A stretch of DNA of 64,000 nt from Lantana camara (taxonomy: Eukaryota > Streptophyta > Magnoliopsida > Lamiales > Verbenaceae), in NCBI GenBank assembly GCA_037501455.1, contig CM074858.1:77722501-77786500 (forward strand). Direction: 5' to 3'. Below are positions 1,570 to 63,200 of this stretch, one piece after another. Position 1 is the first letter of the stretch. Each line of letters opens with the position of its first letter. Below the pieces are notes generated by a model, which was not told the origin of the DNA, made no database searches, and saw only the letters and a program-made list of their open reading frames with translations. A program made the translations under genes and the position numbers.

Positions 1570-4182
1570 TGTAGCACCCCTATACGTAGGGATACCACAC
1601 CCCCGCACTATAGGCCGATCCACATACGAAATGGACCATCCGTACATGAACTAACCTATAGCGAACGGGTGACAAAGAAAAGAAAAGACGAGCTAGGCGG
1701 GACTAAACCCCAAGGCAATACAAAATCAAGGCATAACAGTTAAAAGCGGAAGCATTAACTCATAAATACATATAGGTACCATATTTATCAGATAGATACG
1801 TATAGATACCGAACTTAACTGTCAATACATTATCATCTCTTATACATGATCAAGTATTCAAAATGTGATAACAATAGACATGACATGAGAAGTAGTAAAA
1901 TATATACATGATGGTACACTGATAGACTCGTGACAATGCAAGACTGGACCAGACTCCCGCCTAGCACGACCGGCTCTCAAGTACCTGAAAAGTGAAGTAT
2001 CAGTCTACTGAAGACTGAGTGAGGGGCATAAATATATATAGCGCAATCACATGCAAGTTATAACCTCGGGTAAGGTTTTATAATTAAAAGTAATATAAGT
2101 TCACAATAACATAAACTCGCCCGAGATTACAACTACCAGTATTAAGTACTTGTTCGTTTTCATGCAATCAATCAATACATGGCCCCGGCGAGTAAGGGCG
2201 GTCTCCAACCGATCTCCCAATGAACATGAACCTGCTTGCTTGTTTAATAGTCAATAGGTGATCATGCAATTCACTTATCGTGCAATCGTGCGATAGTGTA
2301 CTCATATAACACGTTCATGAAATGACAATCATGCAATAACCCGAGGCACATCCGTGGTGCCGGACTCGTCACCAGTCTCCTTTTTCCTCCGGTTTGATGA
2401 AGGGATTGCAAGGCCCCAACATCCAATCTCATTGAGCAGAGGGTACATGAATCCCTAAGCCCGGAGCTCCTTCCTCCACTAATCTCCTAGTGGATTCAGG
2501 GGTGACCCCTAACATGGTGAGGATAGCGCCAGAGTTACCCGTCAGCCCTTGCTTTCCCGGTTGGCTCTAGTCACTACCCTCGGGCCCAAACGGAACCGGT
2601 CATGCTACTCGCCTAAACATGCATGAAACGATACCTGACTTGCTTGCTTGCTTGCTTGCTTGAACCTGGCTTGAAATGATTAATGATTTATAGAAAGTAT
2701 AATCGTAAATACTATTTTGGCCAAAATATCACATAAGGGGTATACGGGTTCTATGTAACTAACGATTAAACCTCACCTATACCGACAAAGACAAGTAGGC
2801 ACGATCTACAGGGCTTGCTCCTCGTCCCTACCCTCGTGACCTGTGCAAACACGACACTTATACATGAGACATGACCCAAAATGCCCAAAATGTGACGAAC
2901 GGCGGAAATGTATCGAGATGACCACGAAAATGCAATGTGGTATGATAACATGTTGTTTCACATCATATTAGCACATATTACAGCAATTCGGGGTCAAAGA
3001 AGTCGTTGGATCGAGGGGCTAAAAATGTAATTTTATGCAGTCACATTTGTTCTGTCAGCGAGGTGGGAACAGCCGTTCCGGGTTGCCTTTGTAAATGGGA
3101 ACGGTCGTTCCCATTCCTCCCAAAACACACCCACGTTTTCCCCCCTTTAAAACGCGCGGAAGCTGGGAACGGCCCTTCCGGCACAAGGCCAAAATGGGAA
3201 CGGCCGTTCCCATGCTCGGCCGCCTAAATCATTTGAAAAGGTGGGAACGCCCGTTCCCACAATGCCTTGAGGCTGGGAACGGCCGTTCCCTGTTTCTGCA
3301 AATATGAAGAACAGAGAAAAACAGGGGAGGTTATGGGAATGATCAACAAAGCAACCAAAAATCCATTTGCAATCTACCAAGTTATGTTTTGCTGGAAGTA
3401 TGATGCATACATATTCAACAAGCAATAAAACTCCATTTAAACACCTAAATCATGGAAAATCACCAAGAATCCAGGTTCCAAGCTCATGATCACACTTGAT
3501 CATTCAAGCTCAATTCTCAACCAATTCATGCACAAATCATGCCATAATTCATGATATAATCACATAATCATGCTTCCAACTTCAATTAACTCATCTAACA
3601 TATAAATCCCAAACCCTAGCTCAATCATACATGCTCAAGAATCAAGAGTTCATGCACAACCAACCTTGGAAATGAAAGAAAGGAAGAAGATGGATGAGGG
3701 TGATGATCAAGCTTCCCAAACTTGGATTAATACTTGAAATTCTTGATGAAATGGATGAAAATCACTTCCTTTCCTTTTCTTCTTATTACCGAGAGAGAGA
3801 GGAAGCAAATATGTGGAAGAATTTGGAAGCAAAATGATTGAAGAAGCTTGGAGATGATATACCCTGATATTTAGGAAATATGTAATATTTGCAATTAAAC
3901 CCTCCAAGTTATTTAAGTTAAGCAATTAAGGATATCAAGTTTGGAAGGTGATCACTTTAGTCCCCAAAGGTTTCAAGCAATTTGGTCCCTAAATTTAAAA
4001 GAATGGACATCTAGGGCCAAGTTGACAATTAAATCATTTTCGGTAAATCTCACGAAATAAACATTTTCAAGTTATGAGATAAATTATAAATTAAATATGA
4101 ATTTCATGAAAGTATTATAAAATATAATTTATAAAATTATTTTAGACATAAGATATCAATAAATAAAAATCGGGGCGTTACA
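1570..4182 (-). mobile_element. Element D 5' LTR (2.6 kb)
   Basis: On the minus strand the LTR starts TGTAACGCCCCG at 4182 and ends GGGTGCTACA at 1570, giving TG...CA ends. The PBS follows on the left; on the right, 4183 resumes the LTR of element E, which matches E's second LTR from 8811. The five bases after the right end (GTTTT, 4183-4187) are the likely target duplication; its partner is outside the window. The U5-side part is closely similar to the end of A's 5' LTR, whereas the U3 start resembles A's 3' LTR and the C LTRs. It contains a TTGC tetranucleotide run at about 2640-2661 and the hairpin cluster at 3065-3290. No protein is encoded. Confidence 0.85.
3065..3290. repeat. GGGAAC/GTTCCC hairpin-palindrome cluster in D LTR
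   Basis: Five or six copies of an inverted repeat with a four-base centre. Clear copies: ATGGGAAC-GGTC-GTTCCCAT (3095-3114), ATGGGAAC-GGCC-GTTCCCAT (3194-3213), GTGGGAAC-GCCC-GTTCCCAC (3241-3260), GGGAAC-GGCC-GTTCCC (3275-3290). The outermost pair changes from A-T to G-C in step. Decayed copies lie at 3065-3079 and near 3175. Equivalent clusters occur in the C and A LTRs. Confidence 0.9.
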
Positions 4183-5043
4183 GTTTTGATTTGAGTAAGT
4201 GTGTTCTGTCTGTCCTTCTGTCATAAGTTCGTGAAACGGGGGTGATATACTTTTAAGCTAATAAGATATGCTCCGATATGTGTGTTAAGTCTGTCTGAAT
4301 CTGAGTTGTGCCTTAAGAAACTTTTGATTTAAGATTTGTTTGGTCTGTTTGATAAGTCTCCCTATATGTATATTATCACGGGAAAATGTTTTGGCGTGCA
4401 AAAACTAACCCCGGGTTCACGAACGTCGCTTCTTCTTTGTGCTTTGCTCTATATATATGTATAGTGTGCGTGTGTCAGCCCCTCGCTCAGTCTTTGGACT
4501 GACCCCTCCCCGTTTATATTTTTAGTTGCGGGTTCAGGTCGTTGGAGTTCGTGCTAGGCGGCGTTGTGTCGAGTCTGTGTCTGTTCGTTTAAGTTTGTTA
4601 AGTATTTTATTCTGATTTATGGTTCGTAAACTCTGTATAAGATATGTTCTGTGCAGGTTAGGAATCTATGATTTGAATGTTTCGAATTCGGGACAGGTTA
4701 GGACAGGTGCTCGGATTAGTTGAACCCGTTTTGACGTGTAATTATTCGGGACAGGTTAGGACAGGTTTGTTGAACTAGTTGAACCCGTATATTTGATTCT
4801 AATGTATGAACTGCGTTGTTTGCTAGGTGTGTAAAAGTTTTTGTAAGTTGGCATTTCGTGCTACTTCCGCTGTCATGTTTTGCATTCTTTCACTTGTACA
4901 GGGTTAGATACCGCCTAGCCAGTGGGTGCGTTTTTCGTCTGTCACCCGTTCGCTGTGACTTAGGACGTGTACGGACCCTCCATTTCGTACACGTGTCGGG
5001 TCATAGTGCGGGGGTGTGATGCCCCACCGCTTGGGGTGTTACA
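4183..5043 (+). mobile_element. Element E 5' LTR, right part (interrupted by D)
   Basis: This matches the last part of E's 3' LTR (8811-9698) at roughly 97% by eye. The main difference is a 26-bp stretch present at about 8871-8896 and absent here near 4243. It ends GGGGTGTTACA at 5043 and is followed by a PBS, so it is the end of a 5' LTR on the plus strand. The first roughly 2.6 kb of this LTR lies beyond D, left of the window. It contains the conserved U5 block CACCCGTTCGCTGTGACTTA seen in many LTRs here. Confidence 0.88.
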
Positions 5044-5050
5044 TCTTGAG

Positions 5051-5062
5051 TGGTATCAGAGC
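5051..5062 (+). other. Element E primer-binding site (tRNA-iMet type)
   Basis: TGGTATCAGAGC, seven bases after the LTR end at 5043; a perfect match to the complement of the plant initiator-Met tRNA 3' end. Confidence 0.9.
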
Positions 5063-5388
5063 TACCAGGTTCAGAACCGGTGCTCTGGAGTCGTGTCGTG
5101 TCAGTTTAGGTTGTACGGCATAGGAATATGTGCGCATTGCATCCGTTTGGCCTGTAATTTTGCTTCCTCAGTTTGAATTGTATTGAGTTATGTGGCTAAG
5201 TGCGCAATATGATTACGATTGTGCAACATTTTATCAATGTGCCTTTAATTGCTTTTATTGTTGTGCTTACATGACTTAAACGCCACATTACATTTGCATT
5301 CTTAACACTCATGCACCAACTTAGTGTTTTAACTACAGGGCTGCTTTAGCAGCAATGTAATCACCTTTCTTGGTCAAGGCTTCCAATA

Positions 5389-5420
5389 CTACGGTGAACG
5401 ATACGTTAAGCATGCATGAC
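5389..5420 (+). other. Conserved internal box (CTACGGTGAACG...CATGCATGAC)
   Basis: The block CTACGGTGAACGATAC, followed by TTAAGCATGCATGAC, recurs in the C units (52851-52880, 57967-57996, altered at 62771-62800) and in B on the minus strand (44101-44130). In every case it precedes the hairpin array by roughly 110-210 bp. Its function is unknown; conservation between otherwise different internal regions suggests a cis-acting role. Confidence 0.7.
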
Positions 5421-5531
5421 ACGAGCATACATGCATTCTTTATTTGATTAATTCTTAATATTACGTGATATATCTGTCAATTGTGATACTTACTGATTGT
5501 TGTGATTTTAATTCTGCTTTTGTGCTTGAGT

Positions 5532-5930
5532 GAGAGAGATTTGATTCTCTCTATTTATGTGCTAGGGGGATGTTAATTCTTCCTACTTGTGTGTTAGAGA
5601 GATGCTGGATTCTCTCTATATTACGTGACAGAAAGATGCTGGATTCTTTCTGAGTTTCGTGCTCGAGAGATGCTGGAATCTCTTGTTCTTAGGTATTCGA
5701 GGGATGCTGGATTCCCTTGAATTTAGGGTTTGAGAAATGCCGGATTTTCTCAAACTAGATTGTCTGAGAGATGTGGAATCAATCAGACTTAGGGTGAGAG
5801 ACGGGGTTCTCTCGATGTTGTGCCTGAGAGACGGGGTTCTCTCTTTTGTGTGTTGAGAAATGGGGTTTTCTCTTTTGTGTGCCGAGGGACGGGGTTCCTT
5901 CGCTTGTGTGTCGAGAGATGGGATTCTCTC
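5532..5930 (+). repeat. Tandem array of about twelve covarying hairpins in E
   Basis: Each unit is arm-loop-arm, spaced 30-45 bp. Examples: TAGAGAGA/TCTCTCTA (5595-5602, 5611-5618), CAGAAAGA/TCTTTCTG (5629-5636, 5645-5652), TTCGAGGGA/TCCCTTGAA with one G.U (5696-5704, 5713-5721), GTTTGAGAAA/TTTCTCAAAC (5728-5737, 5746-5755), GAGAGA/TCTCTC (5796-5801, 5808-5813), GAGAAA/TTTCTC (5855-5860, 5867-5872), CGAGGGA/TCCTTCG with one G.U (5883-5889, 5896-5902). Loops are TGCTGGAT-like in the first half and CGGGGT-like in the second. Changes in one arm are matched in the other. One unit (5762-5788) has kept only its outer stem. Confidence 0.92.
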
Positions 5931-6219
5931 TCTTGTTTGTTGCGGTTGCGTTACTTTTGGCCAGACGACAGCTTGCAAGCAACGAGGACGTGACGGTATC
6001 AAGCTTCGGGTGCAGTGGCCTAGTGGTGATCGAATGAGTTGAAGTGACCAACGGTCAAGTGCTCAGTAGGACCTCTATAACAACGATGCTAACTAAGGGA
6101 GAAGTATCCTGCAGAGATTGCAGTCCGCCTAGATCAGAGTTGCGCAGCGGAAGCTAGAAGTGGAATTCGTTTCAGCTTCATTAAAGATCTGACCTTAGGA
6201 CCTGAGGACAGGTCCTTTT

Positions 6220-6233
6220 GAAGGAGGGGAGTT
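6220..6233 (+). other. Element E polypurine tract
   Basis: The purine-rich GAAGGAGGGGAGTTT stretch lies immediately before the 3' LTR start (TGTAACATCCCG at 6234), the expected plus-strand priming site. Confidence 0.8.
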
Positions 6234-9200
6234 TGTAACATCCCGCTCGTCCGATTTATAAGGTACGCCATGTTCCAACCTTTTAATCTGTTTAATTATG
6301 TGATTTTATATTTTTGTGGCCCTATTTTGAACTCTTTTAGAGTTTAGGGGCCCTTTTGTAATTTTCTCTTTTCAGGGGTCTTTTGGTCATTTCTCGTTCG
6401 ATCGAGTTATCGACCTTTTTGACCCCTTCAACGCGTTCGGGGCATCGAGATGAGTCCGTAGACTCTGAGTTTGCCCAATTCTGACTTCGTTAGCCCATTC
6501 TTCCGACCGTTTTTACGTACGAGGACCCGAGATTTATACCCCGAATCCTTGTAATTCGTGCCAAAGATCAGATCTCAGCCTTCAGCGTCTTCCTCCAGCG
6601 AATAGCACTGTTCACACACTCGAAGGTGTGATTTCACACACATGCTCGTTCTCCCTCGTTTCTCGACGGAATTCAACGAATCAATAGTCGAAATTCATCA
6701 GCTCGACGAGCCCGTCACAACCGTACCAAGATCGTGGCTAACCGACCACCCACGGCGGCGCAGCGGCGGCCTGAAAGTGGCGGGTGGCGCCACCACTTCG
6801 TCGCCGGCCAACCACTACCCTACCCTACGTTTTTGATCCTTCCCGTTCCATTTCCGGCCTCTTTTTTGAGCGAATCGCGGCGGAGATGGCGGAATCGGCG
6901 GTGGCGCGGTGGCAGAACTTCGGCGGCGATTTGGGCCCTTTTTCCGGCCGGTTTCGGTGTTGGTCGCTTCACGAAAGTTGCTTAGAACGGCGGAAACTAG
7001 CGGATGGCGTTGGCCCCGACTCGAGAACCGGCCTGCAGTGGCGAACCGGTGGCGGACCGGGCCTGGACCGGCGGTCCAATTTTCCGGTGACTTTTTCTGG
7101 GTTTTGGCTGGGGGCTTTCGTAGAGCTCGTTACGGGCTTTCCAACGGTATGTCCGGATTTTATTTTCGTTTAGCGGTTTGTATTTAATTTCAGTATTCGT
7201 ACTAGGATTTTGGTTCGGGTTTTCGTCAACGAAGTCCGACGTGTTTGGTATTTTCTGAAATTGATTGAGGGCTTTTGTCGAGCAGGCCGAGACACACGTT
7301 TCTGTCCTTCCGGGGATTTTTTCGACCACCGAAGGCGGTGTTCCGGTGGCGGCCGGTGGCTGTTCGGCCGGCTACGGTGGCGGCATTCCGGCGAATTTCG
7401 GACAGTAGGTCCGTTTCTTTGTGGTGAGTCCAACGTCACTTCCCGTTCGTCAATCGGATGTCCGGTTGATTTGTTGTGATTTATTTTGTATAACTTGAAT
7501 ATTTGAAATTAATTGTTTTAATTGCTAATTGCTTGATTTGTCGATCGAATTGTATTTCAATGAGTACGAAATCATGTATTAGATGAATTATGGATTATAT
7601 TGATGCTTTGATATGCCATTTGAATTCCGATGTATCGAATTTGAGCTATTTGGCTATCTTGAAGGGGGTGTATATGTAATTTCACTAAACATATAAATTG
7701 TATGAACTTGGTAATATTGAATAACATAATTGGAATTTGATATATGACTTCGTAAGCTTAAAGGGATTCGTAACGTGCTATTATGTGAATTTTGTATAAA
7801 ATGTGATATGTAAACTTGCGTGATTTGAATTAATTGAACTTCAAATTGTGACTTGGTAAATAAATATGTTAATCACGTAAATTTGAATTTGATATGTAAC
7901 TTCGTGATCTTTAAATAGAATTTGTAGCATGTTATTATATGATTTGTTTGGCTTTATAATACGTATAAATTTACGAAATGTTATCTGTGAATTCCATTGC
8001 CTTTCGAGTCCCCTTAATTGCATTAATTGTGCTTATGGACATGCCTTAATGTTTTGTTTTGCCTGAAATTAATATGGATTTGAATCCTGCTTATGTGATT
8101 GCATTTGCTGTGCGTCCCTGTGTGGTTGTCTGAGTTTGAGTTTGAGCCTTGTGGTCTGTTTTGTGTGTTCAGTTGGTTCAGGTGCACCCGGGGTGGTGAC
8201 AAGTGAATCGTGCAGGTTCCGGGGTGGACCTTCTGCTTTGTGTTCGCCTGTGTTTGGTACCAGGTGAGGTTAGGATATAGTTATACCCTATTGCAACGTG
8301 ATCGTTTTCGAATGCATGCGCTTTATAAGCCTTATGTATATGTAGATATGTGTGAAGTACGTATTTTGCTGGTTTTGTCATATGATTTGATTTGAAAATA
8401 CGAAACGCTATGTATGAGCCTATGTATGCTTTGTCTCAGTTCTGTTATGATTTCGAAGTCAGTCTGCGTGATATGTACGTGTGATATGATAAGCACGATC
8501 TGCATGAGTTATGCTTTGTCTGTCTGTGTGTGACAAGTTAAGTTTTCGGTATGTCTGTTTATCTGTGTGATGGGCCCCGGAGATTGTGGGTAAGGGAGAC
8601 CCGAGACGACCATTGGGGTCGCCGGTTACGACCCCTGTGCACTTCTCCAAGAAACGGGAGACTTAGTTCTCCTATGCCGACGGAGCGCATTTTGGCTGGC
8701 CGTCGAAGGAACCAGACGGGATCCTCCGGTTCATATGTTTCGTTCTGTGGTGGGTTGAGAGGGGCACCTCTCTTCCCCAATGGTGTGCAGGTAGGATTGT
8801 TTTATGAGTTTTGTTTTGATATGAGTAAGTGTGTTCTGTCTGTCCGTCTGTCATAAGTTCGTGAAACGGGGGTAGATTCTTAAATTAAGATAAAAATTGA
8901 TATACTTTTAAGCTAATAAGATATGCTCCGATATGTGTGTTAAGTCTGTCTGAATCTGAGTTGTGCCTTAAGAAACTTTTGATTTAAGATTTGTTTGGTC
9001 TGTTTGATAAGTCTCCCTATATGTATATTATCACGGGAAAATGTTTTGGCGTGCAAAAACTAACCCCGGGTTCACGAACATCGCTTCTTCTTTGTGCTTT
9101 GCTCTATATATATGTATAGTGTGCGTGTGTCAGCCCCTCGCTCAGTCTTTGGACTGACCCCTCCCCGTTTATGTTTTTAGTTGCAGGTTCACGTCGTTGG

Positions 9201-9698
9201 AGTTCGTGCTAGGCGGCGTTGTGTCGAGTCTGTGTCTGTTCGTTTAAGTTTGTTAAGTATTTTATTCTGATTTATGGTTCGTAAACTCTGTATAAGATAT
9301 GTTCTGTGCAGGTTAGGAATCTATGATTTGAATGTTTGGAATTCGGGACAGGTTAGGATAGGTGCTCGGATTAGTTGAACCCGTTTTGATGTGTAATTAT
9401 TCGGGACCGGTTAGGACAGGTTTGTTGAACTAGTTGAACCCGTATATTTGATTCTAATGTATGAACTGCGTTGTATGCTTGGTGTGTAAAAGTTTTTGTA
9501 AGTTGGCAATTCGTGCTACTTCCGCTGTCATGTTTTGCATTCTTTCACTTGTACAGGGTTAGATACCGCCTAGCCAGTGGGTGCGTTTTTCGTCTGTCAC
9601 CCGTTCGCTGTGACTTAGTACGTTTACGGACCCTCCATTTCGTACACGTGTCGGGTCATAGTGCGGGGGTGTGATGGCCCACCGCTTGGGGTGTTACA
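6234..9698 (+). mobile_element. Element E 3' LTR (3.5 kb)
   Basis: Starts TGTAACATCCCGCTCG after the polypurine tract and ends GGGGTGTTACA at 9698. Its last 890 bp pair with the 5' LTR part at 4183-5043. The five bases after it, GGCAA (9699-9703), are the probable target duplication. The first third closely matches LTR I (12485-13114, minus) and more distantly the start of B's 3' LTR. A GC-rich block at about 6700-7440 breaks the AT-rich background and gives several overlapping open frames that look like composition effects. I did not find the four-base-centre hairpin cluster of the other LTRs here. Confidence 0.88.
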
Positions 9699-13431: not shown

Positions 13432-14004
13432 TCAGTAATTAAACAACCAATCCATACCAAGTATAACGTCGTATCTTGTCATCGGTAACTCAATGAGATC
13501 CGTCGGGTAACAACGGGTACCAATAAATATAGGGCAGCGTTTATATACTTGATCCGTAACAAGGCAAGTTCCCAAAGGAGAACTCCCTTCAAATTTAAAT
13601 GGCAAGTATTCAAGTGGAAACTGTAAATGCGCACATAATTTAGATGCAACAAATAAATGCGTGGCACCAGGGTCATACAAGACCTTAACTGGCGTGTTAA
13701 GAATGTGCACAATACCTTCCACAATAGACGAAGGATCAACCTCCTCATTACCATCCAAAACATACGCTCTGCCTTTGACCACCGGTTTGTTCGTCGTACC
13801 CACCACTGCTTTTCCTTTATCTTGGACCCCAAATCTCTTGATCTTGTTCAGGCAGCTGTCCATCTGGTGCTCAGACGAACCACACACGAAACATTGTCCC
13901 GCCTTGTCGCGACAATTTGCCTCAGTATGTCCAATTCGGCAACATAATTCATAAACAATTTCTTCCTGAGCATGTTGAGGTGCTTTCTGTTGCTGCTGTA
14001 GCAC
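13432..14004 (-). pseudogene. Element F gag zinc knuckle and aspartic protease
   Basis: A 190-residue minus-strand frame. A complete CCHC knuckle is visible (C38, C41, H46, C51). An earlier one has lost its first Cys (Y18 in that place, with C21, H26 and C31 present). The retropepsin active site is DPGATH at D111, and the terminal VILGMDWLF motif is typical of plant gypsy proteases. In the family the knuckle binds element RNA and the protease cleaves Gag-Pol. The Gag core lies upstream at 14285-14719 in a different frame, so frameshifts separate them. Downstream, RT and RNase H are missing. Confidence 0.85.
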
Positions 14005-28244: not shown

Positions 28245-28252
28245 TCTACAGG

Positions 28253-28265
28253 TGGTATCAAAGCC
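28253..28265 (+). other. Element A primer-binding site (one mismatch)
   Basis: TGGTATCAAAGCC, eight bases after the LTR end; the initiator-Met PBS with one G-to-A change. Confidence 0.85.
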
Positions 28266-28497
28266 CGGTTACAAAACCGAGGTTGTCGAGTCGTGTCCAG
28301 GCAGTCTAGGGCGCACGGCATAGGGTTATTTGTTATTTGAGAGTCTGCATTTAGCTGAATTGTTGATTTACTTTAATCCTCGCATTACTTAACCTATTTG
28401 ACTTTCCTTGAATGTTTGCTTATTGATATTATGGAATTTTATGCACACATTTGTATATATTGATCAAACCATGCATTTGTAGTGATTTGATTTCAGG

Positions 28498-29307
28498 ATG
28501 GATCGCGACAGACACTCCAGTGACCGATCCTCGAGACGTGGGCATCGTCATCATCGGCACCATCATCGTCGTGAGAGATCACCTCCTCCTCCACCTGCCC
28601 AGGCACAGCCTCAGGATTTTATGAACGCCGTGGTAAGGCTAATTGATCAGAGGTTACAGGAAAGGGTCCCTCCACCACCACCAGCACCCTTAACACCCCA
28701 GGAGAACCACATTTCTACCATTTTGCGTGAATTTCAGAATCAGCGTCCCCCGAAGTTCTATAAGGGCGACGATATGCAGGCAGAGATGTGGCTGAAGGAG
28801 ATCGAGCGGATTTGGCAGCTTATACCTTGTGACACTCAGGATCAGCGTCCCCCGAAGTTCTATAAGGGCGACGATATGCAGGTAGAGATGTGGCTGAAGG
28901 AGATCGAGCGGATTTGGCAGCTTATACCTTGTGACACTCAGGAGAAGGCTGGCTGCACCCTTACTTTGATTCAGGGTGAGGCCTACTCATGGTGGGAGAG
29001 CACACAGATAGTATTGGAGGAAGCTGGTAAAGACATTATTTGGGAGGTATTCGTACGGGAGTTCAGAAACAAATTTATTCCTCCAGCTTCCCGTACTCGC
29101 AGGTTGAGGGAGTTTACAGAGCTGAAACAAGGAGGGAGATCAGTTGCTCAGTATATCGCCGAGTTCGAGAGGCTTTCTCGCTATGCACCCAACATAGCGA
29201 ATGATGACTTTCACAAGGCGATGCAGTTCGTACAGGGACTTCGACCCGACATCCAGGACGCCCTAAAAGCAGCTAACACGAGCACCTGGGCAAAAGCTAC
29301 CCGCTAA
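28498..29307 (+). pseudogene. Element A Gag (with an internal 34-residue tandem duplication)
   Basis: The frame opens at the ATG after ATTTCAGG, 233 bases after the PBS. It has an Arg/His-rich N-terminus, a Pro-rich stretch (residues 29-38 and 60-66), then the plant chromovirus Gag core with RPPKFYKGDD and EMWLKEIERIW. This core segment is present twice: bases 28741-28842 and 28843-28944 are a 102-bp tandem copy with very few differences, adding 34 residues in frame. The later core (GEAYSWWEST, EFRNKFIPP, F..LKQG..SVAQYIAEFERLSRYAP) is normal. The frame ends at a TAA at 29305; the following knuckle/protease region is in another frame, so a frameshift lies near 29300. Gag would form the particle in the cytoplasm. 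Confidence 0.92.
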
Positions 29308-29311
29308 AGCT

Positions 29312-30163
29312 TTGAAAGTTGAGGATTCTGACATTGCCAGAAGGTCTATTCCGCATACAGGACAGGCTTCAGGCTCGAGGTCGGGACAGGGTTCGAGCTC
29401 GGGAAAGAGGCCTATGGTTTATCCTACACCTCCAGCACAGAAGGATTCCGGGAAGAAACTTAAAGCTACTGGACCATCACAAAAGGCTCCGAGAGCTCCA
29501 GCACCACCACAGCCACCTCAGAAACCGGGCTGCAGATTTTGTGGGCTTACTACACATAACTATGATAATTGCAGACGACGTTTGGGGCTATATTTGATTT
29601 GTGGGAGCGACGAGCATTTGGTTGATGGATGTTCGGATCGTCGGGATCCGCCACCTGCTAGAGCTCGGGCCTATGCACTAGCTGGAGAGGAGCAGGATGC
29701 GGAGATTGACCCTACAGCGGTAGTTGAAGGTACTATTTGCATCCATGGCACGAACATCCATACATTATTTGATCCAGGAGCTACACACTCCTTTCTTGCG
29801 CATTCTATTGCTATTACTTTACCTTTGCCTGCCATGTGCTCTTCTGTGCGTTATTTAGTTAGTACCCCTTTCGGTAGTAGGCGAGAGACGGATCAGGTTT
29901 CCAGGGATGTTCCAGTGGTGATTGAAGGTCGGGGATTCTTAACAGATTTCATTGTTATGCCAATGGAAAGATACGGGTCTATTCTGGGGATGGATTGGTT
30001 GTTCAGGCATTGTGCTACAGTCGATTATCGGGCAAAGAAAGTACAGATGGGTTCAGATGTTGTTACGGGTTGGACTTTGAAGACGGTACCCCTACTCATT
30101 CTCAGAGGCTCAGAAATTGGTCAGAGACGAGGCTACAGGATTCATTGCTTATATTCTGAATAA
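29312..30163 (+). pseudogene. Element A Gag tail: CCHC knuckle and aspartic protease
   Basis: A Pro/Ser-rich linker (residues 15-72) is followed by one complete CCHC knuckle (C74, C77, H82, C87) and a second that lacks its first Cys (Y94 in place; C97, H102, C107 present). The retropepsin active site FDPGATHSF has its Asp at 154, and the C-terminal GMDWLF motif is near residue 230. Gag upstream is in frame 1, this is in frame 2, and RT is in frame 3, so two frameshifts (near 29300 and around 30110-30160) have broken what is normally one polyprotein. The Met used is only the first in frame. Confidence 0.9.
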
Positions 30164-31221
30164 GCCAAAAGATCAGGTGAAATTGGAAGACACGGAAGTG
30201 GTAAAAGAGTTTCCCGAGGTATTTCCAAAGAAGTTAGATTCTTTGCCCCCTGAACGACAGATAGAGTTTGTAATTGATCTTTATCCGAACGCTGAGCCGT
30301 ATTCAAAAACTCCGTATCGTATGGCTCCAGCAGAGTTAAAAGAATTAAAAGTTCAGCTCGAGGCACTATTGGAAGTTGGGTACATCCGGTCGAGTTCTTC
30401 ACCTTGGGGAGCACCGGTGTTATTTGTAAAGAAAAAGGACGGAACTTTGAGAATGTGCATCGATTACCGGGAGTTGAACCGGATGACTATTAAGAACAAG
30501 TATCCCCTCCCACATATCGAGGAGTTATTCGATATACTTCAGGGTTCCAAGGTTTATTCGAAATTGGATTTAAGACAGGGATACTACCAGCTGCGGATCC
30601 GAGCAGAGGACATTCCAAAGACGGGATTCAATACTCGGTACGGGCACTACGAGTTCGTGGTTATGCCTTTTGGGTTAACTAATTCCCCTGCAGCTTTCAT
30701 GGATATGATACACCGGATTTTCAGGCCTTTCCTCGATAAGTTTGTGGTGATATTCATCGATGATATTCTGGTTTTCTCAAAATCTGCCGAGGAGCATGCG
30801 AGACATCTTCAGCTCGTTCTACAGACTTTAAAGGATCATCAGTTGTTTGCTAAGTTTAGTAAGTTCGAATTTTGGATCGATCGGGTTGCTTTCTTGGGAT
30901 ATGTGATTTCGGGTAAGGGTTTGGAAGTCGATCCCTCAAAAATCGAGGCCGTGCTTAACTGGGAGAAACCAAAGAATACCTCGGAAGTTAGAAGCTTCTT
31001 GGGATTGGCCGGATACTATAGAAGATTTGTTCAAGATTTTTCTAAGATTGTTGCACCGTTGACCCGATTAACAAAGAAAGATGTCAAGTTTGTCTGGGAC
31101 GAGAAGTGTGATCAAAGTTTCAACTTTTTGAAAGAAAAGTTAGTCTCAGCTCCGGTGTTAGCACTTCCTGAGGGTTCAGAGGAGTATGCAGTGTATACAG
31201 ATGCTTCTAAGGAAGGCCTAG
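30117..31221 (+). pseudogene. Element A reverse transcriptase and start of RNase H (split by N)
   Basis: Frame of about 368 residues. After a linker, the RT domain spans about residues 70-270: [33 protein letters not shown] (catalytic D151), and FIDDILVF (D215, D216). The thumb/connection follows with [15 protein letters not shown] and [11 protein letters not shown]. RNase H begins at YTDASKEG, containing its first catalytic Asp, and is cut there by the insertion at 31222. RT itself has no internal stop. The usual polyprotein is broken by the frameshift at its start, the N insertion and later stops. RT copies element RNA to DNA inside the particle. Confidence 0.95.
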
Positions 31222-31516
31222 TGTAACGCCCCGACTCTTCGAACCTAAAGTTAATTAATTACGTGACCTAATATAATTTATTTAATATTAGAATTAATTT
31301 ATTTATTTAAATGTTATCACATGGGAATTATAATTTGTGCATGAATTGCATGAACTTTGATTTATTTAATTAAACTATTTATGCATGGATTTTATTGAGT
31401 TATGCATGGATTTTTAATGAAATATGCATGAATTCCATGTTTGAGTTTGTTTGTTTATTTTGTGCTTCGTTCTTATATGAAATGATATTGAAATGCCACG
31501 AATTTGTAGTATGTCG
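31222..31516 (+). repeat. N: 295-bp inverted copy of the LTR start
   Basis: Reverse complement of 35847-36141 with about seven mismatches by eye (roughly 97.6% identity). The match stops abruptly at 31516/35847, where gag sequence starts on the left and LTR continues on the right. I see no clear microhomology at the junction. Confidence 0.92.
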
Positions 31517-32429
31517 GTGCCATAGGTAGAGCCTTTGGTCGAGTTGGTGCGGCCTGAGAACCTTGTCCTCCAAACCGAGGCTTCTTAAACGGACCCTTAG
31601 GAGGTGGACTAGCTTGAATCATCGGCCTCTTTCCCGAATTCGATCCGGAACCTCTTCCCATTGGAGCTCTAAACATCGGATCCTTCTTCTTGAATTCCTC
31701 CTCTTGAACCAAAGCTCTTTGCACGGTGTCGGCAAATGACTCGAAGTTGTGACCCGCCTGACCGTGTCTCAAGTCCTGTCTTAACCCCGCAATAAACTTC
31801 CTTGATTTTCTCTTCTCATCCCGGGTGACATGAGGAGCATATTTCCCAAGTCTATTAAATACGGCGAGATATTGAGTCACCGTACGCGCTCCTTGCTTTA
31901 ACTCCATGAACTCCTGCTCCTTCCTTTCTCTCACCACTTCCGGTACGAAGCATTCCCGGAATTCTCTCTTGAAAACCTCCCAAGTTACTTCCTCTCCATC
32001 TACCTAGAGCTTCTCCCTTGTTCTTTCCCACCATTCATATGCATCTCCATCAAGTTGGAATATAGCAAATTGAGCCTTCTCTTGCGTGGTGAATTGTCGG
32101 ACTCCAAATATCCTCTCCAATCGAATCAACCAACCCTCCGAGACCGCATCATCGTTAGAACCAGAAAACCGAGGGGGGTTGTAGCTCAGAAACACCCCAT
32201 GAGGGTCTTTATTATTATTATGATTTGGTGGAGGCGCCGGTTGTTCTGCTTGTTGTGGTGGGGGAGCTTGAGCCCTCCTATGCTCGACATAGTTAAAAAC
32301 GGCTTCCATGAAATTCCCCATATCCATTGGTGGTGCTTGTGGTTGGGGTGGAGGCGTAGGGGATCGATCATGATGACGGCGGTGTCCGGGAGATCTCTCA
32401 CGGTGTCTACGCGGAGGCATCCTGTTCAA
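31517..32429 (-). pseudogene. Element N Gag (truncated, one in-frame stop)
   Basis: The minus-strand frame starts at 32429 with an Arg/His-rich N-terminus (RRHRERSPGHRRHHDRSP), then Pro/Gln-rich sequence and the Gag core: NPPRFSGSNDDAVSEGWLIRLERIF, then AIFQLDGDAYEWWE. A stop at 32004-32006 interrupts it; the same frame resumes with the later core (EFMELKQGARTVTQYLAVFNRLGKYAP) and a basic tail (SGKRPM, FKKPRFGG) up to about 31520. There the sequence changes to inverted LTR, so the zinc knuckle and all of pol are absent. The N-terminal organisation resembles A's Gag, placing N near the same chromovirus group. Confidence 0.88.
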
Positions 32430-32614
32430 GAAATACTGAAATGCATGCTATTTTTAGTCCATGCATGCAAGTGCAATTAATTCGATCAAAATTCAAGATT
32501 TAAAGCACACAAGCACGTAAACAATGCATATACAACACATTGACAAGTTGTTCCTAAAGCCGAACGACCTAACTAACTCAACATGACACTAGAGCCCGGG
32601 TTTTGCAACCCTAA

Positions 32615-32626
32615 GCTCTGATACCA
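32615..32626 (-). other. Element N primer-binding site (tRNA-iMet type)
   Basis: TGGTATCAGAGC on the minus strand, eight bases inside the LTR end at 32635; perfect match. Confidence 0.88.
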
Positions 32627-32634
32627 CATAAGGA

Positions 32635-35600: not shown

Positions 35601-36141
35601 CAAATGACTTAGGAAAAATATAAGGCTAAGTTTACTAAACTTGAATTTTTGTTACAAGTTCAGCGGAGTTGACAGAACTCGAATCCGAGTTCCCGAGCTC
35701 AAGATATTAAATTCGGAACCAAGGGTACGCTAAGTGCTCGTTAGCCCCCGATTTGGTTCCTTGAATCAAATTAAATTCGATAACATACCAAATAAATTCG
35801 AAAACATAAACCGAGCATATAAGCATGTTCATAACACATATATTTACGACATACTACAAATTCGTGGCATTTCAATATCATTTCATATAAGAACGAAGCA
35901 CAAAATAAACAAACAAACTCAAACATGGAATTCATGCATATTTCATTAAAAATCCATGCATAATTCAATAAAATCCATGCATAAATAGTTTAATTAAATA
36001 AATCAAAGTTCATGCAATTCATGCACAAATTATAATTCCCATGCGATAACATTTAAATAAATTAATTAATTCTAATATTAAATAAATTATATTAGGTCAC
36101 GTCATTAATTAACTTTACGTCCGAAAAGTCGGGGCGTTACA
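32635..36141 (-). mobile_element. Element N LTR (3.5 kb)
   Basis: On the minus strand it starts TGTAACGCCCCGACTTTTCGG at 36141 and ends TTCGGGTGCTACA at 32635. It has the usual U5 blocks (AACGGGGACACAAC at about 32727, GCTAGGCGGG near 32752), AT-rich tracts at 34140-34330 and a hairpin cluster at 34553-34700. The U3-side sequence 35590-35850 corresponds to parts of LTR G and A's 5' LTR. The frames at 34325-34973 reflect repeats and low complexity. No proteins. Confidence 0.88.
34553..34700. repeat. GACAC/GTGTC hairpin cluster with CCCC-type centres in LTR N
   Basis: GGTGACAC-CCCC-GTGTCACC at 34553-34572 (8-bp arms), ACCGAGACAC-CCCA-GTGTCTTGGT at 34585-34608 (10-bp arms, one G.T), GACAC-ACCC-GTGTC at 34664-34677, and a weaker CGAGAC/GTTTCG pair at 34685-34702. 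A decayed copy is near 34630. Same layout as other clusters, with the centre changed from GGCC to CCCC. Confidence 0.88.
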
Positions 36142-38000: not shown

Positions 38001-38020
38001 GAATCTGGGGACCGGATTCT

Positions 38021-38037
38021 CTTAAGGGGGGGAGAGT
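38021..38037 (+). other. Element A polypurine tract
   Basis: CTTAAGGGGGGGAGAGT directly precedes the 3' LTR start at 38038. The same CTTAAGGGGGAGAG motif precedes the LTRs of B and C. Confidence 0.88.
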
Positions 38038-43569: not shown

Positions 43570-43915
43570 AAACAAGAGAGAATCCCATCTCTAGACAGGC
43601 AAGTGAGAGAACCATGTCCCTCGGCACACAGAAAGGAGAGAACCCCGTCTCTTGAGCACACAAAAAGGAGAGAACCCCGTCTCTCGAGCACATAATTGAG
43701 GGAGCCCCGTCTCTCAACCTAGGCCTGACAGATCCCAAAATCTCCCAAACATTCTAGTTTGAGAAAATCCAGCATTTCCCAAACCCCTAAATCCGAGGGA
43801 ATCCAGCATCTCTCGAATACCTAAGTACAAGAGAATCTAACATCTCTCGTGCACAAAACTTAGAAAGAATCCCGCATCTTTCTATCATAGAATTAGAGAG
43901 AATTTAAATCTCCAT
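43570..43915 (-). repeat. Hairpin array in element B
   Basis: On the minus strand about ten units of the E-type hairpin: several with a CGGGGT loop between GAGAGA and TCTCTC (43640-43715), then TGCTGGAT-type loops. A perfect 8-bp stem, TAGAAAGA/TCTTTCTA, is at 43861-43868 and 43877-43884. Other units have mismatches, so this array is more decayed than that in E. It lies about 300 bp from the polypurine tract. Confidence 0.85.
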
Positions 43916-44100
43916 TCCACTTAAACAGAAGGAATGTACATACCTCTTGCATGTAAATACACTTACTAAAACATTCCTACATATATACATCAGAATAACT
44001 CAGTTAAGAAATTACACCAATCCTCACATTTTACAGTTTAGCAAGTATCAAGTGGTAACAAAAGTTAATCACTAAGTGATACATCTATGCTTATGCCATG

Positions 44101-50321: not shown

Positions 50322-53300
50322 TCTAAGGTGGTCTCAGAGCCCGGTTGCAAAACCGAGGTTCTCGTGTCGTGTCATGTCGAGTCTAGGTCGTACGGCATAG
50401 GAATTTCTTGACAAATTGAGAGTCTTGCATATTATTTGAATGCCTTGATTTCCTTGAACTCTTTGAATTGATTGAAATTACTTGATAACTTGTGCCTTGC
50501 ATTGATTTCTGCTATTAATTGCTAATTAATTGATTTTTGAATCGTTTGAAATTATTTGCTCGACGTGTTTTATTCCAAGCATTGATGAATTATTGTTGCA
50601 TTTTATATTAAATTCTCGCTGATATTAATTATGTAACAACTATGTGACATGAACACGTTTTACCCACATGCATTTACTTGCAAAGTAAGTTGTGAGTGAC
50701 AGGTTTTGGAAATGTATGAATCAAGGGCGAAGGATTTTGAAGATTTGAGAAATCAATCAACCGTTCGAACCAAGCTTGCAATTCGGTCAACCAAGAGTGG
50801 ACACCGAAATTGAGTTTAACATTTCTACGGTGCTACGTTCTTCAATACATTCATAAACACGTGCATCATAATTGTTAATTAAATTGCTTCTCATTATAAA
50901 CGTTGTTTTAATTGTATTCGAACTTTCCTACTTGATACCTTGAGTGCATGTTCAAATTATTCATATTACATACATTTCCTTATCTATACGTATATCTTCA
51001 AAATGATATAATTGTTCCAATATGTTGCATTTTAAATTGGTGGTAATATGTGCATTGACACTTTAATCATCGTGCATTATTTAGTGTTTATTGTCAATAG
51101 GCTCTCCCTATGCTCTGCACAATCCTTGCTCCTGGTGCTACCAATTTGAATTTAAAGAAGAGATTTCTGAAGCATTGGGTATCATGTTGGGAACCGGGTT
51201 ATTTGACTTTGCTTGAAGTTTAGAAATGTTTGGGACTGTGAGAATTTATCGATCCAGGATTCCGTAGGAGCATGTACGATATAGATATTTGGAAAAACTT
51301 TAGAAACTGGGAAATGATGATAAGTTCAAGCAGATAAATGTTCAATGGGTTCTTCAATCTTCAGAAATTAATCAGCATTTTGGGGATTCAGTAAGGGTAG
51401 GAGAAAGAACTTTTCTTGCTTCGGATCAGGGTGTTAATTTGGCAAATATGAACTCTAGAAGCAGTAGGTGGTAAGTACAGGATATGACATTTTCACGAAT
51501 AGCAGAAGGGTTGTGGGATGCTGGGAAATTTTAATATCAAATCTGAGTGGTGACAGTCGGGGAATTTCAAGTTGGGTATGTCTATAACAGAAAAGATTAG
51601 AAAAGAACCATTAATCAAAATCTTGATTAATAACAAGTAGGACGAGGAAAAGGTTATGGGAATTGAATCAGCAGAGAAGCTTGCAAGTGGGAAAGGACAG
51701 AATGAATCTAAAGAATAAGAAAATTCCTATTTTTCTTCAGGGGGGGAGCCGGACTGGGAGTAAACATAAATTTGAAGTTAGACAGCACTTGTGGAAGTTG
51801 GGATCTTTAAGAAAACCAATTATTCCTGGAATTCTCTATCAGAACCATGTGAAAGAAGTTTTCAATAATCTGAACCTTCCCTCCCTCTTATACAAAGAAA
51901 AGTCCCATCATCGACAGTACCTTTGTTCCATTATCGTTTTCAAGAAAGTGGGAACACCATCCGTAGTTCTCCGATAGCCTCAGGATATCAGTTGACTCAG
52001 TAAATAGAAAAGGATTCAATTTGGGTAATACTCAGAATCAATCTCAAGTTTTGGTAGGTTAACTCCGACGAGAGTTTTCTTACGAAGTTATTACTTATAA
52101 CCTAGAGATGCCTGTAAATGCACATCCTGTTTTCATCCGTGATGTCGCCGTCACCTCTATAAATATACCAGTTTACCCTGAACACTTCAGAAAGATGGAA
52201 GCTTGAGTGATCCTTTCTTTCAAGATATTTCGTGGAATTATTGGGTACGTCATTAAAATTCCCGTGGTTAAATGGAAGACGTTTTACAAGGACTTAATTC
52301 CTTCAGCTCTATGTAAAAGTGCTTGTTCGGGTACTCACATGGGATAACCATCTGGATTCTCTTCCGTATTAAATATCCGTCGTGCTATTTTCTAAGGGAA
52401 TAGATGCTCAACTTTCGAATTTCATACAAAAGAGTTAAGATCTTTGCTTCGGGAAAATATTTCACTTTTATTACAAAGGTCGAGGAGATGGTAAAACCTG
52501 TTGTCTCTGTTTGTCAGATAAGAGCTTTCTTGGAGCATAAAGCTAGTCTTTTAAGCTTGAATATACAATTATTCCATGACAAGAAATCTCGGGTTGTTCT
52601 CAATTCCAAAACCCGCAAGTGGATATGGTAATTAAAGTAAAGAATGGTGCGACCGGTAAATCTGGGATTACCACGGGTCTGAAGATATGGTGATTAATGA
52701 TGATTTACGGATTATGTTACAAAATAGCACGAGGACGGAGATGGCTATCAAGAATGGGAATATTGAACCGTAGTGGCACCAAGTTTAAAGAAATCGCAAC
52801 TAAAAGAATCAAGAATTCAGTCGGGTTATTTCAACACCGGAACTTCAATCCTCGGTGAACGGTACACTTAATCATGCATACCACGTGCATCATTATTTTA
52901 TTACTATCTGTTTATTATTATTTGTCATTCTTGTATACGATTCATTGTTTATTATCAATTGTTTATGTGAACTAATAGTTGCATAAATGATAATTTTATT
53001 TGATTCTTGTGTGTTACTTGCAAATATTTATCTAAGTGCTCGCTTGAACTTTTATTTCGTGTGCGTGAGAGACGGGGATTCTCTAAGGGTTATCAAGAGA
53101 CGGGGTTCTCTTGCTACTTTCTCGAGAGACGGGGTTCTCTCGTTAATTATTTGAGAGACGGGGCACTCTCATTATTTCCAGTTACTTGTCAACTTGTTTT
53201 AGAGGAAGGTTAGATTTTCTTACAAGTGTTTAGGCTTCGAAAAGTTGAGGGTCGTGATTTCACATATTGAAGAACCTTGTGGATTGAAGACCTCTTTCCA

Positions 53301-58100: not shown

Positions 58101-58531
58101 AAATGATAATTTTATTTGATTCTTGTGTGTTATTTGCAAATATTTATCTAAGTGCTCGCTTGAACTTTTATTTCGTGTGCATGAGAGACGGGGATTCTCT
58201 CAGGGTTATCAAGAGACGGGGCTCTCTTGCTACTTGCTCGAGAGATGGGGTTCTCTCATTAATTGTTTGAGAGACGGGGCACTCTTATTATTTCTAGTTA
58301 CTTGTCAACTTGTTTTAGTGGAAGGTTAGATTTTCTTACAAGTTTTTAGGCTTCGGAAAGTTGAGGGTCGTGATTTTACATATTGAAGAACCTTGTGGAT
58401 TGAAGACCTCTTTCCAACTAATCCCTGACGGGGAGTAGCTAACCCGCGTGGGATTAACACTTAAGAGCCACTTAAATTCCAGGAATTCAGGACATGGAAT
58501 CCGAGGGCGGATTCTCTTAAGGGGAGAGAAT
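55128..58531 (+). mobile_element. Array C, internal region 2 (non-coding, with 364-bp duplication)
   Basis: PBS intact at 55135-55146 (TGGTATCAGAGC). Compared with units 1 and 3 it lacks a segment of about 60 bp near 56275 and carries a tandem duplication of about 364 bp (approximately 56290-56653 and 56654-57017). The repeated block starts near GTGACAGTCGGGGAATTTCA, at 56302 and again at 56666. The box is at 57967-57996, the hairpin array at 58182-58288, and the polypurine tract (one G shorter than the others) ends at 58531. No protein is recognised. Confidence 0.85.
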
Positions 58532-60242: not shown

Positions 60243-63200
60243 TCTAAGGTGGTAAGAGAGCTCGGTTGCAAAACCGAGGTTCTCGTGTCGTGTCATGTCG
60301 AGTCTAGGTCGTACGGCATAGGAACTTCTTGACAAATTGAGAGTCTTGCATATTATTTGAATGCCTTGATTTCCTTGAACTCTTTGAATTGATTGAAATT
60401 ACTTGATAACTTGTGCCCTGCATTGATTTCTGCTATTAATTGCTAATTAATTGATTTTTGAATCGTTTGAAATTATTTGCTCGACGTGTTTTATTCCAAG
60501 CATTGATGAATTATTGTTACATTTTATATTAAATTCTCGCTGATATTAATTGTGTAACAACTATGTGACATGAACACGTTTTACCCACATGCATTTATTT
60601 GCAAAGTAAATTGTGAGTGACCGGTTTTGAAAATGTATGAATCAAGGGCGAAGGATTTTGAAGATTTGAGAAATCAATCAACCGTTCGAACCAAGCTTGC
60701 AATTCGGTCAACCAAGAGTGGACACCGAAATTGAGTTTAACAATTCTACGGTGCCACGTTCTTCAATGCATTCATCAACACGTGCATCATAATTGTAAAT
60801 TAAATTGCTTCTCATTATAAACGTTGTTTTAATTGTATTCGAACTTTCCTACTTGATACCTTGAGTACATGTTCAAATTATTTATATTACTTACATTTCC
60901 TTATCTATACTTATGTCTTCAAAATGATATAATTGTTCTAATATGTTGCATTTTAAACTGGTGGTAATATGTGCATTGACACTTTAATCATCATGCATTA
61001 TTTAGTGTTTATTGTCAATAGGCTCTCCCTATGCTCTGCACAATCCTGGCTCCTAGTGCTACCAATTTGAATTTAAAGAAGAGATTTCTGAAGCATTGGG
61101 TATCATGTTGGGAACCGGGTCATTTGACTTTACTTGAAGTTTAGAAATGTTTGGGACTGTGAGAATTTATCGATCCAGGATTCCGTAGGAGCAAGTACGA
61201 TATAGATATTTGGAACAAATTTGGAAACTGGGAAATGATGATAAGTTCAAGCAGATAAATGTTCAGTGGGTTCTTCAATCTTCATAAATTAATCAGCATT
61301 TTGGGGATTCAGTAAGGGTAGGAGAAAGAACTTTTCTTGCTTCGGATCAGGGTGTTAACTTGGCAAATATGAACTCTAGAAGCACTAGGTGGTAAGTACA
61401 GGATATGGCATTTTCACGAATAGCAGAAGGGTTGTGGGATGCTGGAAAATTTTAATATCAAATCAGAGTGAAGACAGTCGGGAAATTTCAAGTTAGGTAT
61501 GTCATTAACAGAAAAGATTAGAAAAGAACCATTAATCAAAATCTTGATTAATAACAAGTAGGACGAGGAAAAGGTTACGGGAATTGAATCAGCAGAGAAG
61601 CTTGCAAGTGGGAAAGGACAGAATGAATCTAAAGAATAAGAAAATTCCTATTTCTCTTCAGGGGGAGAGCTGGTCTGGGAGTAAACATAATTCTGAAGTT
61701 AGACAGCACTTGTGGAAGTTGGGATCTTTAAGAAAACCAATTCTTCCTGGAATTCTCTATCAGAACCATGTGAAAGAAGTTTTCAATAATCTGAACCTTC
61801 CCTCCCTCTTATACAAAGAAAAGTCCCATCATCGACAGTACCTTTGTTCCATTATCGTTTTCAAGAAACTGGGTACACCGTCCGCAGTTCTCCGATAGCC
61901 TCAGGATATCAGTTGACTCATTAAATAGAAAAGGATTCAATTTGGGTAATACTCAGAATCAATCCCAAGTTTTGGTAGGTTAACTCCGACGAGAGTTTTC
62001 TTACGAAGTTATTACTTATAACCTAGAGATGCCTGTAAATGCATATCCTGTTTTCATCCGTGATGTCGCCGTCACCTCTATAAATATACCAGTTTACCCT
62101 GAACACTTCAGAAAGATGGAAGCTTGAGTGATCCTTTCTTTCAAGATATTTCGTGGAATTATTGGGTACATAATTAAAATTCCCGGGGTTAAATGGAAGA
62201 CGTTTTACAAGGACTTAATTCCTTCAGCTCTATGTAAAAGTGCTTGTTCAAGTACTCACATGGGATAACCATCTGGATTCTCTTCCGTATTAAATATCCG
62301 TCGTGCTATTTTCTAAGGGAATAGAAGCTCAACTTTCGAATTTCATACAAAAGAGTTAAGATCTTTGCTTCGGGAAAATATTTCACTTTGATTACAAAGG
62401 TCGAGGAAATGGTAAAACCTGTTGTCTCTGTTTGTCGGATAAGAGCTTTCTTGGAGCATAAAGCTAGTCTTTTAAGCTTGAATATACAATTATTCCATGA
62501 CAAGAAATCTCGGGTTGTTCTCAATTCCAAAACCCGCAAGTGGATATGGTAATTAAAGTAAAGAATGGTGCGATCGGTAAATCTGGGATTACCACGGGTG
62601 TGAAGATATGGTGATTAATGATGATTTACGGATTATGTTACAAAATAGCACGAGGACGGAGATGGCTATCAAGAATGGGAATATTGAACCGTAGTGGCAC
62701 CAAGTGGAAATAAATCGCAACTAAAAGAATCAAGAATTCAGTCGGGTTATTTCAACACCGGAACTTCAATCCTCGTTGAACAGTACACTTAATCATGCAT
62801 ACCACGTGCATCATTATTTTACTGCTGTCTGTTTATTATTATTTGTCATTCTTGTATACGATTCATTGTCTATTATCAATTGTTTATGTGAACTAATAGT
62901 TGCATAAATGATAATTTTATTTGATTCTTGTGTGTTACTTGCAAATATTTATCTAAGTGCTCGCTTGAACTTTTATTTCGTGTGCGTGAGAGATGGGGAT
63001 TCTCTAAGGGTTATCAAGAGACGGGGTTCTCTTGCTACTTTCTCGAGAGACGGGGTTCTCTCGCTAATTGTTTGAGAGACGGGGCACTCTCATTATTTCC
63101 AGTTACTTGTCAACTTGTTTTAGTGGAAGGTTAGATTTTCTTACAAGTGTTTAGGCTTCGGAAAGTTGAGGGTCGTGATTTCACATATTGATGAACCTTG

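Follow-up and report, generated by a model that had tools for sequence, protein, structure and literature searches.

Covarying hairpin rows, likely kept folded in element RNA, recur across several mostly gene-less families of plant LTR retrotransposons

Introduction

Coding-free LTR retrotransposons are abundant in plant genomes. Large retrotransposon derivatives (LARDs), reportedly described by Kalendar and co-workers in 2004, have long LTRs and a long internal domain, of kilobases, while TRIMs are very small elements with LTRs of a few hundred bases and TR-GAG elements are LTR elements with an intact gag and without pol. In retroviruses, the packaging signals (psi) lie in the 5' leader.

Repeated or folded sequence has been described in several systems related to these by composition or by place. 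In elements of the Tat/Ogre/Retand group, tandem repeats occupy the stretch from pol to the 3' LTR (PMC11963269, PMC3305785); the words hairpin, stem-loop and secondary structure are absent from the main texts of both papers. For Cassandra, a TRIM and coding-free plant LTR element, a conserved RNA fold has been claimed (PMC7215508), and the small RNA virus STNV-1 is described as having multiple degenerate stem-loop packaging signals (PMC6475782).

Here we describe a row of hairpins in a coding-free LTR retrotransposon, element A, which lies in a 64,000-nucleotide stretch of Lantana camara DNA (the window). The row recurs in at least four element families (A, B, C and D), and it bears on the question of how the proteins of one element recognise another that is without coding sequence.

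Results

Element A carries thirteen short hairpins at the 3' end of its internal region

Element A is an LTR retrotransposon in which LTRs, a primer-binding site (PBS) and a purine tract surround a 1.19-kb internal region (Table 1). The PBS, TGGTATCAGAGC, is presumably of the initiator-tRNA-Met type, and the 5' LTR is divided by the insertion of a family D element, which is flanked on both sides by a 5-bp duplication, GTTTT. None of the eight element A reading frames of at least 50 residues had a Pfam match above the curated cut-off.

The stretch 5533-5930 holds 13 short inverted repeats of 6-10 pairs each, with loops that are mostly TGCTGGAT or CGGGGT. Units 3-7 form one class (class 1; period ~34, loop TGCTGGAT or near) and units 9-13 a second (class 2; period ~29, loop CGGGGT or near), with units 1, 2 and 8 divergent from both. 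An earlier note, made from the letters of the window, had claimed about twelve units of arm-loop-arm form with G.U pairs among the exceptions to perfect pairing; the count came to 13, and G.U pairs were present in units 2, 5, 6 and 12. Since the row starts ~470 nt past the PBS and ends 304 nt short of the 3' LTR, it belongs to the 3' end of the internal region and does not adjoin the PBS. A block reading GGTGAACGGTAC, or near it, lies ahead of the row in families A, B and C, as found by alignment, and in family D, as found by eye.

A reading of the row as a coding repeat was rejected, both because neither of its periods (~34 and ~29) is divisible by three and because no frame had a Pfam match above cut-off. 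A 148-residue open frame on the minus strand (5616-6062) runs across the row, also with no Pfam match above cut-off.

Table 1. Features of the row-bearing elements. Positions are those of the window, except where L194, a stretch just beyond the window edge, is named.
Feature	Position	Strand	Remarks
Family D 5' LTR	1570..4182	-	element inserted in element A 5' LTR
Family D internal region	~1563 down to 1, on into L194 10000-8165	-	
Family D gag-fragment frame	L194:8544-9620	-	upstream of row
Family D row, 4 hairpin units	L194:8233-8337	-	
Element A 5' LTR, left part	L194:2947-5551		just beyond window edge; cut off by family D insertion
Element A 5' LTR, right part	4183..5043	+	95.4% identical to 8813-9698
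Element A PBS, TGGTATCAGAGC	5051..5062	+	also present in some sister copies
Conserved block, GGTGAACG(A/G)TAC + ATGCAT	5381..5445	+	upstream of row
Hairpin unit 1	5533..5552	+	7 bp
Hairpin unit 2	5563..5585	+	8 bp, two G.U
Hairpin unit 3	5595..5618	+	8 bp, loop TGCTGGAT
Hairpin unit 4	5629..5652	+	8 bp, outer C-G (T-A in family B)
Hairpin unit 5	5664..5685	+	7 bp, one G.U
Hairpin unit 6	5696..5721	+	9 bp, one G.U
Hairpin unit 7	5728..5755	+	10 bp
Hairpin unit 8	5762..5788	+	6 bp, inner mismatches
Hairpin unit 9	5796..5813	+	6 bp, loop CGGGGT
Hairpin unit 10	5826..5843	+	6 bp, loop CGGGGT
Hairpin unit 11	5855..5872	+	6 bp, GAGAAA/TTTCTC (family B: GAGAGA/TCTCTC)
Hairpin unit 12	5883..5902	+	7 bp, one G.U
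Hairpin unit 13	5913..5930	+	6 bp, loop TGGGAT
Purine-rich tract ahead of element A 3' LTR	6220..6231	+	polypurine tract by position
Element A 3' LTR	6234..9698	+	3.46 kb, starts TGTAACATCCC
Family B row	43574..43930	-	internal region ~3.5 kb; 314 nt before 3' LTR at 43260
Family C row, 4 hairpins	53065..53172	+	245 nt before 3' LTR at 53417
Family C row, second tandem copy	58181..58288	+	
Family C row, third tandem copy	63014..63093	+	

The row recurs in families that are mostly without coding sequence

A covariance model of the class 2 units was run against 99,302 bases, made up of the window and four further genome stretches. It gave 53 matches (E up to 1), all of them inside eight rows (three each in B and C, a single one each in A and D), although 13 of the 18 units used to build the model sit in the searched sequence and therefore match by construction. 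The matches fell 46 times on the sense strand of the element and 7 times on the opposite strand of the same units, and all eight rows lie on the sense strand of their element. The distance from row to 3' LTR is 304 nt in A, 314 nt in B, 245 nt in C and 69 nt in D.

As in element A, the frames of family B (at least 60 residues; 0 of 10) and of family C (at least 70 residues; 0 of 4), which has an internal region of 3.1 kb, gave no Pfam match above the curated cut-off. Family D, the LTRs of which are 99.2% identical to each other, carries upstream of its row a frame of 358 residues that is 36% similar to gag and 43% similar to the zinc-knuckle part of the protein of another element, with two CCHC knuckles identified by eye. 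This frame had no Pfam match and did not align with the stretch of the window gag that holds the Pfam capsid domain, and no pol was seen in the portion of family D read. Positions 45202-45536 of family B resemble the first 111 residues of the same frame. The description of the carrier as coding-free in the earlier note thus holds for element A and finds its limit in family D, which carries the row together with a gag fragment.

The row-bearing elements yielded no reverse transcriptase. When five proteins of the window served as queries, gag was matched within at most 1.5 kb at one of the 58 loci of families A and B (L022, downstream of the row) and at none of the 30 loci of family C. No autonomous element with a row was found in the sequence examined, and the covariance model search found no row in the only chromovirus-like element of the window (28252-38036).

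That element has gag-pol coding with a weak chromodomain match at its end; it is interrupted at ~31217-36147 by an insertion with 300-bp inverted repeats (97%) at its bounds, and its gag contains a 102-bp direct duplication (28734-28943). An A-like LTR start near 13123, on the minus strand, lies beside a frame with zinc-knuckle and protease parts (13432-14004). It was rejected as an autonomous partner of A because it sits within integrase-like coding, which makes an insertion the probable origin.

The copies of family C are arranged as a tandem LTR-internal-LTR array across 48604-64000 of the window and on into a further stretch (L193:1-1048), with a period of ~4.8-5.1 kb and ~95-97% identity, and one of its units contains a 364-bp direct duplication (97%; 56279-56984). 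Places of families A and D on other chromosomes also come in regularly spaced groups.

Paired arms change on both sides while pairing is kept

The arms of the hairpins covary, as the earlier note had claimed. In a set of 31 family-typical units (12 of the 13 in A and 11 of the 12 in B, with A unit 8 and B unit 7 excluded for inner mismatches, plus four each from C and D), 207 of 217 pair positions hold standard pairs. This exceeds every one of 5000 reshuffles of whole 3' arms (maximum 196) and also the maximum of 200 reached when reshuffling was confined to family and loop class. At least two Watson-Crick types occur at each of the pair positions 2-6 from the loop; position 7 is A-T in 7 units, C-G in 8 and T-A in 8. 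Changes on both sides were seen at five of seven pair positions in 18 units, a number reached by 0 of 500 shuffles, and at five of eight positions in 9 units, reached by 6 of 500; these shuffle controls call for caution, as related units can exceed shuffles.

A cleaner test of covariation than pooled units is given by orthologous units of A and B. In their family-typical forms 16 of 90 pairs differ, 13 of which still pair (10 by single changes, 3 by double changes) and 3 of which break. In all 10 of the single changes, a G.U pair is either gained or lost, and units 2, 5 and 6 have their G.U pairs at identical positions in both families. When the alternative pairs of the free-energy fold were compared between A and B, 7 were kept, 14 broken and 11 gapped, as against 13 kept, 3 broken and 9 gapped for the named hairpins (Fisher p = 0.007).

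In 21 copies of family D (L227-L246 and L194), all six inner positions are paired in 91 of the 92 units recognised, where recognition itself needed at least four of the six pairs, and four main arm pairs occur. The copies carry 3, 4, 5 or 6 recognised units (2, 10, 8 and 1 copies, respectively), and whole units are missing or added among them in the alignment, so that duplication contributes to the row besides paired change. The two results that had been named beforehand as telling against a structured row, namely no covariation, or duplication without paired changes, were not what we obtained.

Variants shared between copies seldom break pairs

Copies decay after insertion, so variants seen in a single copy should be mostly neutral, while those present in several copies should mostly have passed through replication. 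We compared the two kinds in copies taken from the genome (1.27 Gb, 378 contigs). First-look searches gave 4582 (A), 4325 (B), 3308 (C) and 3104 (D) candidates, totals that may overlap and are not copy numbers, and ~40 candidates were scored per search. For A, 36 of 41 listed places were fetched and 32 used (28 in the first test); for B, 36 of 40 were fetched and 33 or 30 used; for C, 30 of 40 were fetched and 26 used; and for D, 21 of 40 were hand-picked across nearly the full span of the list, starting at its top. Each copy was oriented to its match before variants were counted.

In the first test (28 A and 30 B copies, close neighbours included; 364 arm sites and 417 unpaired sites), variants seen once were spread over arms and other sites alike (103 and 104), whereas variants in at least three copies fell 16 times on arms and 52 times off them (p = 1.3e-4). 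None of 389 slid arm masks was as extreme as the real one.

Scoring of the effect on pairing gave the same contrast. In 65 copies (32 A and 33 B, after dropping the close neighbours L004, L005, L007, L008, L013, L019 and L026), variants in at least three copies comprised 5 that broke a pair, 12 that kept it and 57 at unpaired sites, as against 73, 44 and 124 for single-copy variants (p = 1.2e-5). In 62 copies (32 A and 30 B, with L010, L191 and L192 dropped in addition), the respective counts were 3, 12 and 52 for shared and 69, 42 and 121 for single-copy variants (p = 3.5e-6). For variants in at least two copies the p values were 3.2e-4 (65 copies) and 3.3e-4 (62 copies), or 0.06 and 0.03 when broken and kept pairs alone were compared.

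Family C by itself (four units, with L198, L200, L209 and L216 dropped) ran in the same direction as A and B without reaching significance: 1 broken, 3 kept and 6 unpaired among shared variants, and 11, 5 and 32 among single ones (p = 0.67). In the 21 copies of family D, 4 variants fell on 60 arm sites and 20 on 69 other sites. Within families, loops were no more conserved than spacers (22 shared variants over 191 loop sites, 30 over 226 spacer sites).

The deficit of pair-breaking shared variants was present in both loop classes, which bears on whether the guanine runs of the loops could be what matters. Quadruplex-prone stretches have been described in plant LTR retrotransposons (PMC3902901), and CGGGG loops occur in most C and D units and in A units 9, 10 and 12, so that quadruplexes might form between hairpins or between RNAs. 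We consider this very improbable, as the class with loop TGCTGGAT, which is without such a run, shows the same deficit.

The folded form presumably acts in sense RNA

As isolated pieces, all 13 units fold as a single hairpin (units 12 and 13 in shifted register), and in 12 of the 13 the sense-strand form has the greater stability, often by little. Folding of the whole array points the other way, with a z-score of -4.45 for the sense strand and -9.77 for the antisense strand, and the named hairpins with a probability above 0.5 in the global fold number 6 of 13 for sense and 9 of 13 for antisense. In the sense global fold, units 9-13 have probabilities of 0.02-0.22; with spans of up to 60 nt, 7 of 13 named hairpins exceed 0.5 on the sense strand.

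Wobble pairs offer a second view of strand. Among the inner pairs of family-typical units there are 10 G.U and 2 A.C (binomial p = 0.04 against one to one), while single-copy variants give 32 G.U and 21 A.C. The excess over these private variants is not significant (10:2 against 32:21, p = 0.19), which makes the argument from G.U pairs weak on its own. The folded form presumably acts in sense RNA.

The same wobble pairs speak to a role of the row as DNA, in which GA-rich palindromes would serve as binding sites for GAGA-motif proteins or would extrude as cruciforms. Many arms do read GAGAGA/TCTCTC, but others stray from GAGA (TAGGGGGA, CAGAAAGA, GTTTGAGAAA) with pairing intact, and DNA would not make the contrast by which G.U is commoner than A.C. 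We therefore give such a role little credence.

They also speak to an account without selection, in which template switching between arms (quasi-palindrome correction), together with unit duplication, regenerates the pairing at each replication cycle. Correction of this kind could explain why shared variants pair while private ones do not, so the variant test alone is no proof of selection; the gain and loss of units in family D and the p value of 0.19 for the G.U excess are likewise compatible with it. Correction gives perfect complements, however, yet units 2, 5 and 6 retain G.U in both A and B, and every one of the 10 one-sided differences compatible with pairing involves G.U, which is a pair only in the RNA of one strand. 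On balance, we regard regeneration without selection as improbable.

Discussion

Taken together, our data indicate that a fold into a row of hairpins is likely maintained in the element RNA across several mostly gene-less families of plant elements. Selection for hairpin structure, which the earlier note had proposed at the level of RNA, is well supported by the covariation and by the deficit of pair-breaking variants; the part of that proposal that places the structure in sense RNA depends on a small G.U excess.

What the structure may be selected for is a more tentative matter. The reading that we prefer, and hold at somewhat under an even chance, is that RNA maintained by selection as a hairpin row serves as a multivalent binding site for the zinc-knuckle Gag of a helper. 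An element without proteins depends on being found by a helper Gag, and similar stem-loops set in a row would be plausible as a multivalent target. The RNA of a coding-free element would be held as a hairpin row near the 3' end of its internal region, where many copies of one stem-loop could raise its affinity for the helper Gag; the element might then be packaged, reverse transcribed and inserted by the machinery of a related element. The sole coding found in a row-bearing element is the zinc-knuckle Gag piece of family D, and the position of the row downstream of it is suggestive only as a link to Gag. Against Gag capture, which is what we infer, stand the results that no helper carrying the row was found in the sequence examined and that the row lies at the 3' end, unlike retroviral packaging signals; the folding bias to the antisense strand, the G.U excess that is not significant against private variants, the lack of loop conservation beyond that of spacers, the family C result and the gain and loss of units also weigh against this reading.

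Nearly as likely as Gag binding, and accordingly doubtful if taken by itself, is that the hairpins are selected in the RNA for another step, such as dimerisation, stability or export, 3' end formation or priming at the polypurine tract, which is downstream of the row. The same structural evidence, covariation and shared variants, fits such a role as well as it fits Gag binding, and so does the constant place of the row near the 3' LTR across four families. The variable distance to the 3' LTR (69-314 nt) speaks against a rigid role in priming, and exchange between units is less likely as the purpose, given that arms differ from unit to unit.

If the row does bind Gag, it may act as a shared "boarding pass", that is, a modular tandem hairpin signal that lets whole guilds of protein-less elements within a single plant genome use one helper Gag, in which pairing is kept while the letters drift, unlike described cis-elements of LTR retrotransposons. 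We offer this wider idea as a possibility, with fewer chances for it than against it. A stem-loop of 20-25 nt that is under no coding constraint, and that is repeated in tandem in four families or more, offers a short RNA for direct binding assays. Moreover, the comparison of private with shared variants, which sets decayed copies against spreading lineages, is generally applicable to the search for cis-acting RNA structure in mobile DNA.

The literature searched, with subscription journals mostly outside its reach, gave no account of such a covarying row in LTR retrotransposons of plants. In Rfam, window positions 5000-6300 gave two sub-threshold matches only, neither in the row. Among viral contigs, a two-unit pattern of the row had no match; a 14-base pattern had been found in 120 stretches, which we took as chance. 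We file the row as a structured cis-element of non-autonomous LTR retrotransposons, a covarying row common to coding-free families that we have not found described previously.

Set beside known systems, the row resembles the STNV-1 packaging signals, as these are described, in being many copies of one stem-loop with a common loop motif, but those are tied to coat protein and belong to a viral genome, whereas here the stem-loops are in tandem at the 3' end and their binder is putative. The psi signals, which Gag binds and which packaging requires, are stem-loops in the 5' leader next to the PBS; this row begins ~470 nt after the PBS. Cassandra likewise has a fold in a coding-free plant LTR element, and forms tandem arrays of elements, but the fold described is a super-hairpin between LTRs and not a row of small internal hairpins; the 3.46-kb LTR of element A also sets it apart from TRIMs in size. 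The arrays described for the Tat/Ogre/Retand group share the place of the row, as short repeats just before the 3' LTR, but are called tandem repeats or minisatellites and lie in coding elements, probably of another lineage. No reverse transcriptase by which to place the row-bearing elements within or outside the Tat lineage was found, and the coding neighbour in the window, with its weak chromodomain match, is not a carrier.

Family D resembles TR-GAG elements in having LTRs and a gag-like reading frame, the 358 residues of which are similar to gag in two pieces. It differs in that this frame has no Pfam match and no match to the part of the window gag that holds the capsid domain, and in that it carries a hairpin row. 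Element A also resembles LARDs, in which LTRs with PBS and polypurine tract surround a non-coding internal domain and many copies are kept although they encode nothing: A has LTRs, a PBS and a polypurine tract, and no gag or pol in its internal region. In size, its LTR of 3.46 kb goes with an internal region of 1.19 kb, and the internal regions of B and C measure ~3.5 kb and 3.1 kb. What distinguishes these elements from LARDs is a discrete tandem row of covarying stem-loops, a conserved part common to separate families.
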